Made by a program: the position numbers and the translations under genes. This document shows positions 17,504 to 21,533 of a stretch of 64,000 nucleotides of DNA, in pieces. The notes beneath the pieces were generated by a model. It did not search any database. It was not told where the DNA came from and saw only the letters and a program-made list of their open reading frames with translations. The DNA lies in contig NZ_LMPP01000002.1 of the NCBI RefSeq assembly GCF_001423885.1, positions 1-64,000 of the forward strand, read 5' to 3'. The stretch's first letter is position 1. The number at the start of each line of letters is the position of its first letter. Origin of the DNA: Rathayibacter sp. Leaf185. Its GTDB lineage: Bacteria > Actinomycetota > Actinomycetes > Actinomycetales > Microbacteriaceae.

Positions 17504-18282
17504 ATGAGCATCGGCCGCATGACCTCGGCCTCCTCTCGTGTGCTCCGCCTGCTCTCGCTCCTGCAGGTACGTCGGGTCTGGCCGGGCGAGCTGCTGTCGG
17601 AGCGGCTCGAGATCACGCCGCGGACGGTGCGGCGCGACATCGACCGGCTGCGCGGGATGGGCTACCGGATCCGCGCGATCAAAGGCCCCGACGGCGGATA
17701 CCGGCTCGACGCGCTCCGCTTCACGACGATGACTCCGGAGGCACCCGTCGTGGCGCCCGAGGTGCTCGTCGCGGTGTCCGCGGCGGTGCGGGCGCGCGAG
17801 GTGCTGCGATTCGACTACTCCGGCGCCGAGGTGCCTCGACGTGTCGAGCCGCACCACCTCGTCTCGCGGGAGAGGCGCTGGTACCTCGTCGGCTGGGATC
17901 TCGACCGGGACGACTGGCGGGTGTCCCGCGCCGATCGGCTGGCGCCCCGGACGCCTCGCGGCGCGCGCTCCCTGGAGGCGGTGTCGCAGCGTTCCTCGAC
18001 GCCCGGTTCATGGGCGGAGAAGCGGGTGGCGGCTGGCCGTGCCGGGGCTCCGTGAGGCTCGGGCTGCAGGTGAGCGAGGTGCAGCCGTACGCGGTGGACG
18101 GCGCGGTCGAGGACCTCGGCGCCGACGGGTGCCGGCTCTCGCTCGGCGCGTGGACGTGGGAGGCGCTCGCCGCGTCGTTCGGCCGGTTCGGCGGCGAGAT
18201 GAGTGCGGTGGAACCCGCGGAGCTGGTTGCGGCGTTCGGGGTGCTCGCCCGGGGGTTCGAGGCTGCTGCTACGGGTCGATGA
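17504..18282 (+). pseudogene. Decayed YafY/WYL-domain transcriptional regulator (internal deletion and frameshift)
   Basis: The first frame starts as a normal helix-turn-helix regulator, SSRVLRLLSLLQVRRVWPGE then TPRTVRRDIDRLRGMGYRI and GPDGGYRLDA. It then jumps to VLVAVSAAVRAREVLRFDYSG and the WYL core RRWYLVGWDLDRDDWRVSR. The region normally between these parts (roughly 70-90 residues) is missing in frame. Near 17965 the frame breaks: the matching C-terminal part, LPGGGVAAFLDARF and on to LVAAFGVLARGFEAAA, continues in another frame to 18282. The first frame alone ends at 18055 after 183 residues. A single-base error could explain the frameshift but not the deletion. It sits divergent to its likely former target, the VOC gene. 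Confidence 0.8.
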
Positions 18283-18450: not shown

Positions 18451-18759
18451 ATGTCCCTCCGCACCCCCGGCTCACGCCGCTCCTTCCTCACCGGCCTCGC
18501 CCTGGCGGGCACGATCCTGGCCGCTCCGGCGGCCGCCGCCGCGTACACGACCTCCTATCCCGAGGGAGGGACCTGGATCCACGGGGTCAGCAGCGGGAGG
18601 GTGCTGTCGTCGTACCAGCACGGGTCGCGGTGGCACCGGGCCTCGGTCGACAACGGGACGCTGTACCGATCGTCGTGCCGGGCCCCGTCCGGCACGGCTG
18701 CTGTCAGCGCGCCCGCCCGGCCGCTCCAGGTCGATTACGCCTACTACAGCTTCTGCTGA
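18451..18759 (+). CDS. Lactococcin 972-family bacteriocin precursor
   Basis: A 102-residue secreted peptide. The N-terminus is a signal peptide with a twin-arginine motif (SRRSFLTG, residues 8-15), a hydrophobic run and AAPAAAAA before the likely cleavage near residue 31. The mature part has the lactococcin 972 pattern: EGGTW near its start, GVSSGRVLSSYQHG in the middle, and an aromatic C-terminus DYAYYSFC like the YYNFW end of lactococcin 972. That bacteriocin binds lipid II and blocks septum formation. Two cysteines (Cys76, Cys102) could form a disulfide, unlike the cysteine-free prototype. The next two genes are the family's usual membrane protein and ABC ATPase. The ribosome site is weak. 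Confidence 0.9.
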   Translation: MSLRTPGSRRSFLTGLALAGTILAAPAAAAAYTTSYPEGGTWIHGVSSGRVLSSYQHGSRWHRASVDNGTLYRSSCRAPSGTAAVSAPARPLQVDYAYYSFC

Positions 18760-18776
18760 GCCGCCTTCCGCCGGTG

Positions 18777-18796
18777 GGTGGGGCTCAGGCCCCGCC
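18777..18796 (+). terminator. Hairpin between bacteriocin and membrane-protein genes
   Basis: GGTGGGGC (18777-18784) pairs with GCCCCGCC (18789-18796) around a TCAG loop, with one G-U pair. It lies 17 bases after the bacteriocin stop and has no U-run, so partial termination that favours precursor over export proteins is the likely role. Confidence 0.5.
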
Positions 18797-18817
18797 ACCC
18801 CTACAGCAGGGAGAGCT

Positions 18818-20872
18818 GTGAGAAGCAGGAGTGTGATCCTGGGGTACGTCCTGGCCGTCGTCCTCGCGGCGGTGCTCTCGGCCGTCTTCGTGCGTGCCTT
18901 CGACGCGCTCGGACCGGTCTGGAACGGCGGCTGGCAGTTGCGCGTCTCGGGTGAGGCCACTCCGGAGGTCAGCGCCGACGAGCTCTACCGGGAGCTCGCC
19001 TCCCTGGTCGAGCAGCGGGGGATCGACCTGGTCAGGCACGTCGCGGACTCGGACGATCCGGCGACGGTGCGTCACCTCTTCGTCGCAGGCCACGGCGCTG
19101 CTGCCGAGCTGCTCCGCGACGGGTACGGCGCCGTCGACACCTCGCGGACCACGACGGTGGCACCCCTGCTCGACCTCGGTTCACTCGACCCTCGCGGTGC
19201 CTATCTCGTCGGCGGTGAGCGCGACGACGCGGTGGCTGTGCTCGCCGTGATGCAGGCGGAGGGGTGGGCGGGCGAGGTCTCGCCCTACGCCTCCGGGATC
19301 GACGTCGACACGTACCGGGAGTACGGAGACCTGATGCGGGTGCTCGGCATCGCTCTCCTCGGGGTCGCCGTCCTGGTCGGCGCGGGGACACTGCTCCGGA
19401 GCCGCGCTCACGGCGTCCAGCGCCTGCACGGAGCGGGGTCGATGGGAATCCTGCTCACCGAGTGGAGACATCTCGCTCCGCCGGTGCTCGTTCTCTCGCT
19501 CGGCGGTCTGGCCGCGCTGGCAGGCGCAGGGAGTGCCCTCAACGGGCTGGCCCAGCTGCCGACGATCGCCGTGCTCTTCACCCGGCTGCTCGGGCTGCTC
19601 CTGCTCGCGGCCGTCGTCGCGCACGTGCTGTCGATCGCGCTCACCGACGGCCGTCGGGTGATCGACCAGGTCAAAGGTGAGATCGACGGCTGGTGGGTGC
19701 TCGTCGGTGTCTACGCCGTCCGCGTCCCCGCGGTCCTGGTCCTCCTCGCCGTCGTCGCGGCGCTCGGGCAGAGCGCCCGAGTGGCCGATGTCGAGAGCAG
19801 GAGCCGAGAGTTCTGGAGCACTGCGGGCGACGCGGTGACGATCGCCCTCGCCGGGTACGCGAGCGAGGACGAGTACCGCGCGGCAGTCCCGGAGCTCGCA
19901 GCGCTCGTCGAGTCGCAGGCCTCTTCGGGGCGGGTGGTTCTCGTCGAGCCGTCGGTCGGCGAGGAGCGGGACGTGCTCCTCGTCAACGAGGGGTACCTCG
20001 CCGCGGTGCAGGTCCTCGGCAGCGACGGAGAGCGGCTGCTCGACGTCCCCGACGGCGTGATCACCGTTCTGGAGCCCGAGGACACCGGCGAGGAGCGCCG
20101 ACAGTCGTTGCTGGCCGATCTCCGCAGCTGGCAGGAGATCCAGGTCCACGTCCAGGCACCCGCGTCGGGAACCGCCGGTCTCCCGATCGCAGAGCGCATC
20201 ATCCCCTCGGGCCAGACGCTCTACACGTTCCGCACGCTCGACTCCGACCTCTACTCCAGGGAGACCACCCTCGACGACCCGATCGTCATCGTCGTGCCTT
20301 CGGTCTCGGTCGTCGCTCCCTCGGAACTCTTCTCGGCGATCACCCGCGGTGCGGTCGTCTTCACGGCTCCCGAGTCGATCCCGGAAGCGGTCGAGGAACG
20401 AGGGCTCTCCCGCATCGTCGCCTCGATCACGCCGGTCGCCTATCAGGCGAACGAGCAGTACCAGCGAGCCCTCGGCACCCACTCGATCAACCTGATCGGT
20501 CTCGCCGGGGGTGCCCTGGTGGTCCTCCTCACCGGACTCATCGCGGCCGTGGTGCTCGTCGAGAAAGACCGGCAGCGCGCCTTCGTGCACCACTTCTCGG
20601 GGCTCGGACCGCTGTCCGCGCATCGGAAGGGGCTCCTCCTCGAGGGAGTGCTGCTGGCGGCGACGCTCGTGCTCGCGGTGGTGCCGATGTGGCTCCGGGA
20701 CCCGCGAGACGTGCAGACCGTCCTCGACCTCGGAACGGTCGACACCGAGACCTTCGTCATCGAGCAGACCGCGCTGGCGGTGGGGTTGACCGTGCTCAGC
20801 GGTGCGCTCCTCGTCGCGTGCCTCGGGCTCGCTCACGTCCGCGCGGCCCGCTCGCGCTCCGTCGACTCCTGA
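18818..20872 (+). CDS. Bacteriocin-associated integral membrane protein (lactococcin 972 locus)
   Basis: A 684-residue membrane protein of the kind that accompanies lactococcin 972 genes (bacteriocin-associated integral membrane family, DUF1430-like). An N-terminal membrane segment (ILGYVLAVVLAAVLSAVFV) is followed by a large extracytoplasmic region. A central group of membrane spans starts at LMRVLGIALLGVAVLVGAG. A second outer domain and a C-terminal group (LIGLAGGALVVLLTGLIAAVVL, LLLEGVLLAATLVLAVVPMWL, ALAVGLTVLSGALLVACLGLA) follow, an FtsX/MacB-like layout. GTG 18818 is chosen for the AGGGAG site six bases upstream. It probably forms the immunity/export complex with the ATPase encoded 25 bases downstream. 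Confidence 0.88.
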   Translation: MRSRSVILGYVLAVVLAAVLSAVFVRAFDALGPVWNGGWQLRVSGEATPEVSADELYRELASLVEQRGIDLVRHVADSDDPATVRHLFVAGHGAAAELLRDGYGAVDTSRTTTVAPLLDLGSLDPRGAYLVGGERDDAVAVLAVMQAEGWAGEVSPYASGIDVDTYREYGDLMRVLGIALLGVAVLVGAGTLLRSRAHGVQRLHGAGSMGILLTEWRHLAPPVLVLSLGGLAALAGAGSALNGLAQLPTIAVLFTRLLGLLLLAAVVAHVLSIALTDGRRVIDQVKGEIDGWWVLVGVYAVRVPAVLVLLAVVAALGQSARVADVESRSREFWSTAGDAVTIALAGYASEDEYRAAVPELAALVESQASSGRVVLVEPSVGEERDVLLVNEGYLAAVQVLGSDGERLLDVPDGVITVLEPEDTGEERRQSLLADLRSWQEIQVHVQAPASGTAGLPIAERIIPSGQTLYTFRTLDSDLYSRETTLDDPIVIVVPSVSVVAPSELFSAITRGAVVFTAPESIPEAVEERGLSRIVASITPVAYQANEQYQRALGTHSINLIGLAGGALVVLLTGLIAAVVLVEKDRQRAFVHHFSGLGPLSAHRKGLLLEGVLLAATLVLAVVPMWLRDPRDVQTVLDLGTVDTETFVIEQTALAVGLTVLSGALLVACLGLAHVRAARSRSVDS

Positions 20873-20897
20873 TCCCCCCGACCTCGAAAGGGACACC

Positions 20898-21533
20898 GTG
20901 ATCCTCGCCACCGACCTGACCAAGGGCTACGGCCGGCGCTCGCTCTGGAGCGGACTCGACGTGACCGTCGCCTCCGGCAGCACACTCGCGCTGACCGGAG
21001 CGAGCGGCAGCGGCAAGTCGACGCTGCTCAACTGCCTCGGGCTGCTCGACGCCCCCGACTCCGGCTCGATCGAGGTCGACGGGGAGGAGATCACGCGTCT
21101 GCGGGCGAGCGGCCGACGGCGCTTCCGGAGGCACCGGCTCGGCTACCTGTTCCAGAGCTACGCCCTCGTCGACACCGCCACCGTCGAGCAGAACCTCGCG
21201 ATCGCACTGGGGGAGCGCCGCGGTAGGGCGGGCCGGTTCGAGGGCGCACTCGACCGGGTCGGCCTCGGTGGGCGGGGGCGCGAGCGGGTGTCGCGGCTCA
21301 GCGGAGGGGAGCAGCAGCGGGTCGCCCTCGCGCGCCTCCTCGTCAAGAGCCCGACCGTCGTGCTCGCCGACGAGCCCACCGGAGCCCTCGACTCCGAGAA
21401 CGCCGCGATGGTGCTCGACGTGCTCACCGAGCTCGCCGGCCACGGCGCGAGCGTCGTCGTCGCCACGCACGACGACTCCATCGCGAGCTGGTGCGACGCG
21501 AGACTCCACCTCTCTGCGCCGGTGCGAGCGTGA
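20898..21533 (+). CDS. ABC transporter ATP-binding protein of the lactococcin 972 locus
   Basis: A 211-residue ABC ATPase of the short, single-domain MacB/LolD-like type. Walker A is GASGSGKST, the Q-loop lies in YLFQSYALVDTATVEQNL, the signature is LSGGEQQR, Walker B is VVLADEPTGALD, and the H-loop is VVVATHDDS. GTG 20898 follows GAAAGGGA. It matches the putative bacteriocin-export ATPase that ends lactococcin 972 operons. With the preceding membrane protein it should handle export of, or protection from, the peptide. As the precursor has its own signal peptide, protection or extraction from the membrane is at least as likely as export. Confidence 0.9.
   Translation: MILATDLTKGYGRRSLWSGLDVTVASGSTLALTGASGSGKSTLLNCLGLLDAPDSGSIEVDGEEITRLRASGRRRFRRHRLGYLFQSYALVDTATVEQNLAIALGERRGRAGRFEGALDRVGLGGRGRERVSRLSGGEQQRVALARLLVKSPTVVLADEPTGALDSENAAMVLDVLTELAGHGASVVVATHDDSIASWCDARLHLSAPVRA

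Follow-up and report, generated by a model that had tools for sequence, protein, structure and literature searches.

A complete lactococcin 972 (Lcn972) locus occupies positions 18451 to 21533 of the window, the 64,000-nucleotide stretch of a Rathayibacter sp. Leaf185 contig that was analyzed, and represents a known type of bacteriocin system in a form specific to one clade. It comprises a precursor gene, a gene for a large integral membrane protein, and one for an ABC ATPase, all on the same strand, with gaps of 58 bases between the precursor and membrane protein genes and 25 bases between the latter and the ATPase gene (Table 1). The original prediction had placed these genes in the order known for Lcn972 loci, and both the coordinates and the family matches agree with this. 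We propose, with a probability of roughly 0.6, that they form an operon of the Lcn972 family for a Tat-exported, disulfide-closed, lipid II-targeting peptide, with the membrane protein and ATPase providing self-protection. If this is true, a Gram-positive bacterium would be exporting a bacteriocin through Tat. Its identification extends a small and little-studied bacteriocin family to Rathayibacter.

Table 1. Features of the Lcn972-family locus in the window
Feature	Positions	Strand	Details
Lcn972-family precursor gene	18451..18759	+	PF09683, 37.1 bits; 2lgn by sequence
Predicted signal peptide, residues 1-31	18451..18543	+	Sequence and 8-precursor alignment; putative cleavage AAA/Y
Twin-arginine motif S-R-R-S-F-L, residues 8-13	18472..18489	+	SRRS kept in 8/8 copies
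Predicted mature bacteriocin, residues 32-102	18544..18756	+	7748.4 Da reduced, pI 9.1
Cys76 codon	18676..18678	+	
Cys102 codon, last residue	18754..18756	+	
Bacteriocin-associated integral membrane protein, TIGR01654-like	18818..20872	+	684 aa; GTG start; profile links
ABC ATPase, L_ocin_972_ABC-like	20898..21533	+	211 aa; GTG start; TIGR03608, 206.5 bits

Family affinities of the three gene products

The precursor reading frame extends from an ATG at 18451 to a TGA at 18757-18759 and encodes 102 amino acids. Residues 39-99 match positions 2-62 of the 62-position Pfam profile PF09683 (Lactococcin_972), with a score above the cut-off of 22 bits, and this is the sole PF09683 match found in the source genome. 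The precursor sequence also matches the solved Lcn972 structure, 2lgn, with an E value of 5.6e-4. A second family structure, 9hkj (a literature search for "9HKJ" found no paper), is reached at 0.11 with the single precursor sequence and at 1.3e-4 with a four-sequence profile. Against the NCBIfam model TIGR01653, the precursor scores 28.8 bits (E 1.1e-6), below the cut-off of 32.1; as an annotated family member from Lactiplantibacillus plantarum falls short too, at 28.5 bits, this cut-off is not decisive for membership. Structure predictions of the mature precursor and the membrane protein, each from four sequences, had mean pLDDT values of 38.8 and 38.9, respectively, too low for a fold to be read from them.

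Of the 199 NCBIfam families matched by the ATPase, TIGR03608 (L_ocin_972_ABC) scores highest, with FtsE 41 bits behind. The score stays under the cut-off of 254.85 bits; since the ATPases of two annotated Lcn972 loci, at 203.5 and 232.7 bits, do so as well, we do not take the shortfall as a counter-argument.

The membrane protein has no match of its own in Pfam or NCBIfam up to an E value of 0.1, and its affinities emerge from profile comparisons. At E values below 1e-4, a profile of the eight Rathayibacter copies recovers 13 of the 17 further large membrane proteins encoded behind Lcn972 precursors in the family sample, and iteration brings in the remaining four; six of these 17 were scanned with TIGR01654, which gave two clear matches (5.1e-15 and 3.8e-12), one marginal match (0.02), and none for the other three. 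A tblastn search of plasmids with the window protein returned one record, a Streptomyces plasmid protein encoded directly downstream of an annotated Lcn972 bacteriocin, which matches TIGR01654 at 1e-10 and the Rathayibacter profile at 1.5e-78 (hhalign probability, 100); a plasmid search with another protein of the large-membrane type, G197, found nothing. The L. plantarum counterpart is detected at 2.3e-20 with a combined 25-protein profile, for which no decoy among 55 membrane proteins does better than 0.056 and none of 200 shuffles better than 2.2. When the profile is restricted to Rathayibacter, the counterpart reaches just 0.013 (best shuffle, 0.55; hhalign probability, 5.8), and hence this link depends on the wider profile. 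Through these intermediates, namely, the Streptomyces protein and the combined profile, sequence comparison places the window protein, albeit diverged, in the bacteriocin-associated membrane family (TIGR01654/DUF1430).

The original prediction had named a precursor without a family match, or partners falling in unrelated FtsX/MacB groups, as outcomes that would speak against it. What was found is a precursor that matches PF09683 and a membrane protein that joins the TIGR01654 group rather than the FtsX-like decoys. The profile searches that it suggested gave a direct match for the precursor, no direct hit for the membrane protein, and a score below the TIGR03608 cut-off for the ATPase.

All eight Rathayibacter copies, the window's included, display the order precursor, membrane protein, ATPase. 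The seven others have precursors 61-92% and membrane proteins 45-82% identical to those of the window, and the constancy of the order indicates that the three-gene arrangement is more than chance. The same order is seen on a plasmid of L. plantarum and on one of Streptomyces, where the precursors are annotated as "lactococcin 972 family bacteriocin."

A conserved twin-arginine signal

Read by eye in the eight aligned copies, the precursor N terminus has the features of an export signal: a basic start, an uncharged hydrophobic stretch, and AAA before the core. The twin-arginine motif in this signal agrees with the SRRSFLTG-type signal of the original prediction. In all eight copies, SRRS is followed by F or L and then by L, I, or V, and all of them fit the pattern S/T-R-R-x-F/L-L/I/V plus a hydrophobic stretch, which we take to be the Tat-substrate pattern of TatP. 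Tat-type tags are the kind used for the export of already folded proteins. The residue before SRRS is G in seven copies and R in G331, whose motif is partly doubled. Across the eight copies, the second arginine is encoded by CGC, CGG, or CGT and the preceding serine by TCA, TCC, or TCG; these silent changes imply that the protein letters are held while the DNA drifts. Seven of the eight signals lack lysine, and other signals of the family, again by eye, mostly have a lysine start in the ordinary Sec manner. The source genome encodes TatC (PF00902, 8.1e-56). Judged on its sequence, the precursor is likely to be exported via Tat.

To place this signal within the family, we took a census of 95 precursors, in which as many as 75 residues ahead of the core were read; it consisted of 92 precursors plus those of G399, G400, and G401, which were found upstream of the membrane protein gene. 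The Tat pattern fits seven of the 92, five of them from Rathayibacter. The other two were rejected: the motif of G178:C1:2530573 lies upstream of the signal that it has in common with its near relative G360, and that of G673e lies upstream of the gene start. In the other 87 precursors read, no visible signal fits the pattern, the N terminus being out of view in several rows (e.g., G216, G731a, G1057, G750, G735, and G483). One near miss, G098:C3, falls outside the pattern yet is Tat-like in look.

In a tree of the membrane proteins, the eight Rathayibacter sequences form a single clade with a support of 100/100. The tree was midpoint rooted for drawing and only this clade was used; its cysteine labels were assigned manually on the basis of the loci, with G150, whose core is cut, labelled "none." Given this single clade, the signal looks like one gain that has been kept since, and the eight motif copies, sharing one origin, are not independent events. 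The claim of a distinct subgroup therefore holds for the twin-arginine motif, which marks the eight-copy clade, and fails for the cysteine pair.

Cysteine pairs across the actinobacterial branch

As originally predicted, the mature peptide has exactly two cysteines, Cys76 and the last residue, Cys102. The pair is kept in all eight Rathayibacter copies, the second cysteine being the final residue in six of them and the penultimate one in two. The original prediction regarded such a pair, with one member C-terminal, as unusual. This is true in comparison with the Lactococcus prototype: the 2lgn stretch aligned to the precursor has no cysteine, and to our knowledge the whole prototype has none. 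Among actinobacterial relatives, the pair is common: 65 of 91 distinct cores have exactly two cysteines, 20 have none, three have three, two have one, and one has six. The two cores counted as having one cysteine (G889 and G903) each have a further cysteine shortly before the point where the match begins, and two of the 95 cores, those of G150 (in-frame stop) and G216 (partial match), were left out of the count. Hence, we rejected two cysteines as the mark of a subgroup.

One cysteine lies within the last two residues in 35 of the 65 two-cysteine cores. By layout, 23 of the pairs are close, with the cysteines at most 10 positions apart; 25 are of a Streptomyces type, with one cysteine closely preceding a His and the other at the C-terminal end; 10 pair the C-terminal end with another position (the eight Rathayibacter copies, G731b, and G960); and seven have the remaining layouts. 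The window layout is thus common to two precursors, G731b and G960, with signals outside the Tat pattern. The regularity of the pairing suggests that disulfides may occur throughout the actinobacterial branch, and the varied placements of the pair on one domain offer natural material on peptide stabilization.

Distribution, neighborhood, and a second partner cassette

PF09683 was found in 43 of 398 genomes sampled from the family, 22 of 396 from the order, 13 of 394 from the class, and 4 of 396 from the phylum, in samples that overlap and each include the window's genome. The window-type membrane protein occurs in 8 of 15 Rathayibacter genomes, always with a like precursor upstream of its gene and an ATPase downstream; named relatives, 67-73% identical to it, come from Rathayibacter sp. 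VKM Ac-2754, SD072, and VKM Ac-2857. Upstream, an amino-acid permease gene is present in five of the eight loci (the window, G116, G045, G399, and G400). G331 gave no permease match in the stretch examined, though this should reach it; G301 gave no match to any neighbor gene tested; and the G401 locus is close to a contig end. Downstream, genes for YozE-like, TPR-like, and oxidoreductase proteins are common to the window, G331, and G116. Among papers on Rathayibacter and bacteriocins, the one consulted, in part, refers to a lantibiotic cluster in R. toxicus and does not use the word lactococcin; with few subscription papers covered, this is weak evidence of absence.

As a separate observation, two types of partner cassettes follow the precursor in 52 loci of the family and are not seen together. 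The large-membrane-protein cassette is present in 24 (for G087, the sole evidence is a match 3.7 kb upstream), the second in 27 (in four of which only its first gene was found), and neither in one. The second cassette encodes an approximately 200-residue lipoprotein-like protein, an approximately 350-residue adaptor-like protein, an ABC ATPase, and an FtsX-like permease, designations that reflect our interpretation of protein size, hydrophobic stretches, and a single weak match to PG_binding_1 (0.095). The close cysteine pair occurs in 23 of the 27 second-cassette loci versus 2 of the 24 with the large membrane protein. A literature search combining lactococcin 972, lipoprotein, and FtsX found no paper.

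Proposed mechanism and alternatives

We envisage that the Tat translocase would export the precursor by means of its twin-arginine signal, probably already folded as the small beta-structured domain of the family. Signal peptidase would cleave after residue 31, and the resulting 71-residue cationic peptide would close a Cys76-Cys102 bond outside the cell. The mature peptide might then target the cell walls of related bacteria in the manner of Lcn972, namely, through lipid II binding at the septum, and the membrane protein and ABC ATPase could constitute a dedicated pump protecting the producer. Lcn972 itself blocks septal cell wall synthesis by binding lipid II, according to the available parts of PMC4055356 and PMC12345188. 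Activity may differ among family members, as Sil of Streptococcus iniae, in the portion of its report at hand, was found not to kill, unlike Lcn972. In evolutionary terms, we give even odds to a switch from Sec to Tat on one Rathayibacter stem, with folded export followed by a Cys76-Cys102 lock near the C terminus.

The chief competing interpretation, less probable than Tat export although it merits serious consideration, retains the bacteriocin locus and has the peptide leave via Sec, the arginine pair being no more than the positively charged beginning of a standard signal in an organism rich in arginine. The genome is indeed high in GC, and shuffled versions of each signal produce the Tat pattern in 3.2-9.7% of cases. 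Moreover, other signals of the family mostly begin with lysines, and PMC3415414, the only paper found on lactococcin 972 together with twin-arginine, assigns its family member, Lmo2776 of Listeria, to Sec in the part available. Such a reading sits poorly with the retention of SRRS plus F/L plus L/I/V in every copy while the mature parts diverge, and with the near absence of lysine from these signals. At the other extreme, it is highly improbable that an unrelated small secreted protein merely adjoins a chance FtsX/MacB-type ABC pair. The membrane protein's want of a direct family match is what such a reading has in its favor; the gene order held in eight copies opposes it, and the profile links to known members, set against a best decoy of 0.056, contradict it.

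Two further alternatives concern function. The membrane protein and ATPase might have a role in peptide export or release instead of producer protection, which we consider unlikely. TIGR03608 is named "putative bacteriocin export ABC transporter," and PMC4289311, as available, describes one Lcn972 partner as a transporter and its companion as an immunity protein. Against this, the precursor bears its own signal peptide, orf2-orf3 of the prototype are treated as immunity genes (PMC4055356), and the DUF1430 membrane protein is taken as likely immunity (PMC12345188), both in the accessible portions. The accessible text of PMC11796350 states the functions of the B and C genes as unverified for any lactococcin 972 locus; there, producers inhibit strain D39, which has B and C without the bacteriocin gene, and also a locus-less D39, and activation of these genes by D39-type strains was not apparent in the conditions examined. 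As D39 is inhibited with or without the locus and the genes are seemingly inactive, this part of the study leaves protection by B and C unsettled. Less probable still is that the product, a secreted protein of the Lcn972 fold, acts in some other capacity, such as a signal or a host or envelope factor, and is not antibacterial. Consistent with this, the literature examined held no activity of any Rathayibacter member, and S. iniae Sil is also described, in the available part of its report, as immunomodulating; dedicated partner genes in all eight copies argue against it, as do the antibacterial effects reported, in similarly partial sources, for Lcn972, Sil, streptococcin B, and mediterrocin. 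We favor the self-protecting, Tat-exported bacteriocin. Close relatives whose signals are ordinary make the locus a clean test case for the export of a folded bacteriocin through Tat.

Comparison with known systems

Lactococcin 972 of Lactococcus lactis (pBL1; PDB 2lgn) resembles the window locus in the precursor family, by sequence, and in its genes for a precursor, membrane protein, and ABC ATPase, as described in the available parts of PMC4055356 and PMC4289311. It differs in that the window signal has a twin-arginine motif and the window mature part two cysteines. The plasmid locus of Streptomyces sp. NBC_01298 likewise has an annotated precursor, a TIGR01654-like protein, and an ATPase in the same order, and its precursor has two cysteines, one next to the C terminus. 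Unlike the window, both its precursors lack the twin-arginine motif, and its first cysteine precedes the conserved His, whereas that of the window lies in a later segment. L. plantarum pL1277-3 shares the order of an annotated precursor, a TIGR01654 protein, and a TIGR03608-like ATPase; its precursor, in contrast, has neither cysteine nor twin-arginine motif and carries a long segment before the core. Streptococcin B, Sil, and mediterrocin, as the available portions of their reports describe them, are peptides of the Lcn972 family that have membrane and ABC partners and for which inhibition is reported; they differ from the window system in their Bacillota hosts and, for Sil and mediterrocin, in predicted signals of 25 residues.

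Partner cassettes and the cysteine pair of the precursors

Among the 52 family loci, 27, a count that takes in 4 loci showing the first gene only, have the lactococcin 972 (Lcn972) precursor followed by a second cassette in place of the large membrane protein type. As read from protein size, hydrophobic stretches, and one weak match, this cassette comprises lipoprotein-like and adaptor-like proteins, an ABC ATPase, and an FtsX-like permease; in a scan of the example from L056 against Pfam and NCBIfam, three of its four proteins had no match above the cut-off. A close cysteine pair is present in the precursor at 23 of the 27 second-cassette loci versus 2 of the 24 large membrane protein loci. 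More generally, 65 of the 91 distinct Lcn972 cores, drawn from the sampled genomes (family, class, order, and phylum samples) and the Rathayibacter loci, have exactly two cysteines; the residues nearly always come in a pair, and that pair occupies several distinct sites in the alignment. Judged from these sequences, it is as if a single disulfide had repeatedly changed position within one Lcn972 domain.

Both kinds of locus also occur in a single Rathayibacter genome, G116 (L049 and L052), one combining a Tat-type signal with the large membrane protein and the other possessing the second cassette. Elsewhere, the signal of the L042 precursor (G098:C3), MFGKLKARRSIVAG, is Tat-like in look, yet falls outside the pattern used (S/T-R-R-x-F/L-L/I/V); its sequence is possibly an independent case of such a signal.

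Locations of the second cassette and of other features of Lcn972 loci
Feature	Location	Strand	Position or related loci
Second partner cassette, example	L056:250-3693	-	downstream of Lcn972 precursor
Second partner cassette, further loci			L052, L079, L086, L090, L091, L045
Presumed WYL-type regulator gene	window 17504-18282	+	directly upstream of Lcn972 locus
Tandem precursors	G673:C11:213825-214661		L111, L110, L096
Paired precursors	L137:1834-3218	opposite strands	Streptomyces plasmid
Interrupted precursor	G150:C1:2736342-2736536		L078

Presumed regulator gene and further precursor arrangements

The gene preceding the window locus, which we take to encode a WYL-type regulator, is apparently broken: its two parts are out of frame with each other and an internal stretch is absent, while in three other Rathayibacter genomes (G331, G116, and G401) both parts share one frame. 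Precursors may also be multiplied, with three different ones in tandem within ~840 bases of one genome and two near-identical copies on the Streptomyces plasmid. At L078, the precursor is interrupted by an in-frame stop and adjoined by a membrane-protein gene, which is open, and an ATPase gene, an arrangement that recalls those pneumococcal scb loci that are devoid of a bacteriocin gene.
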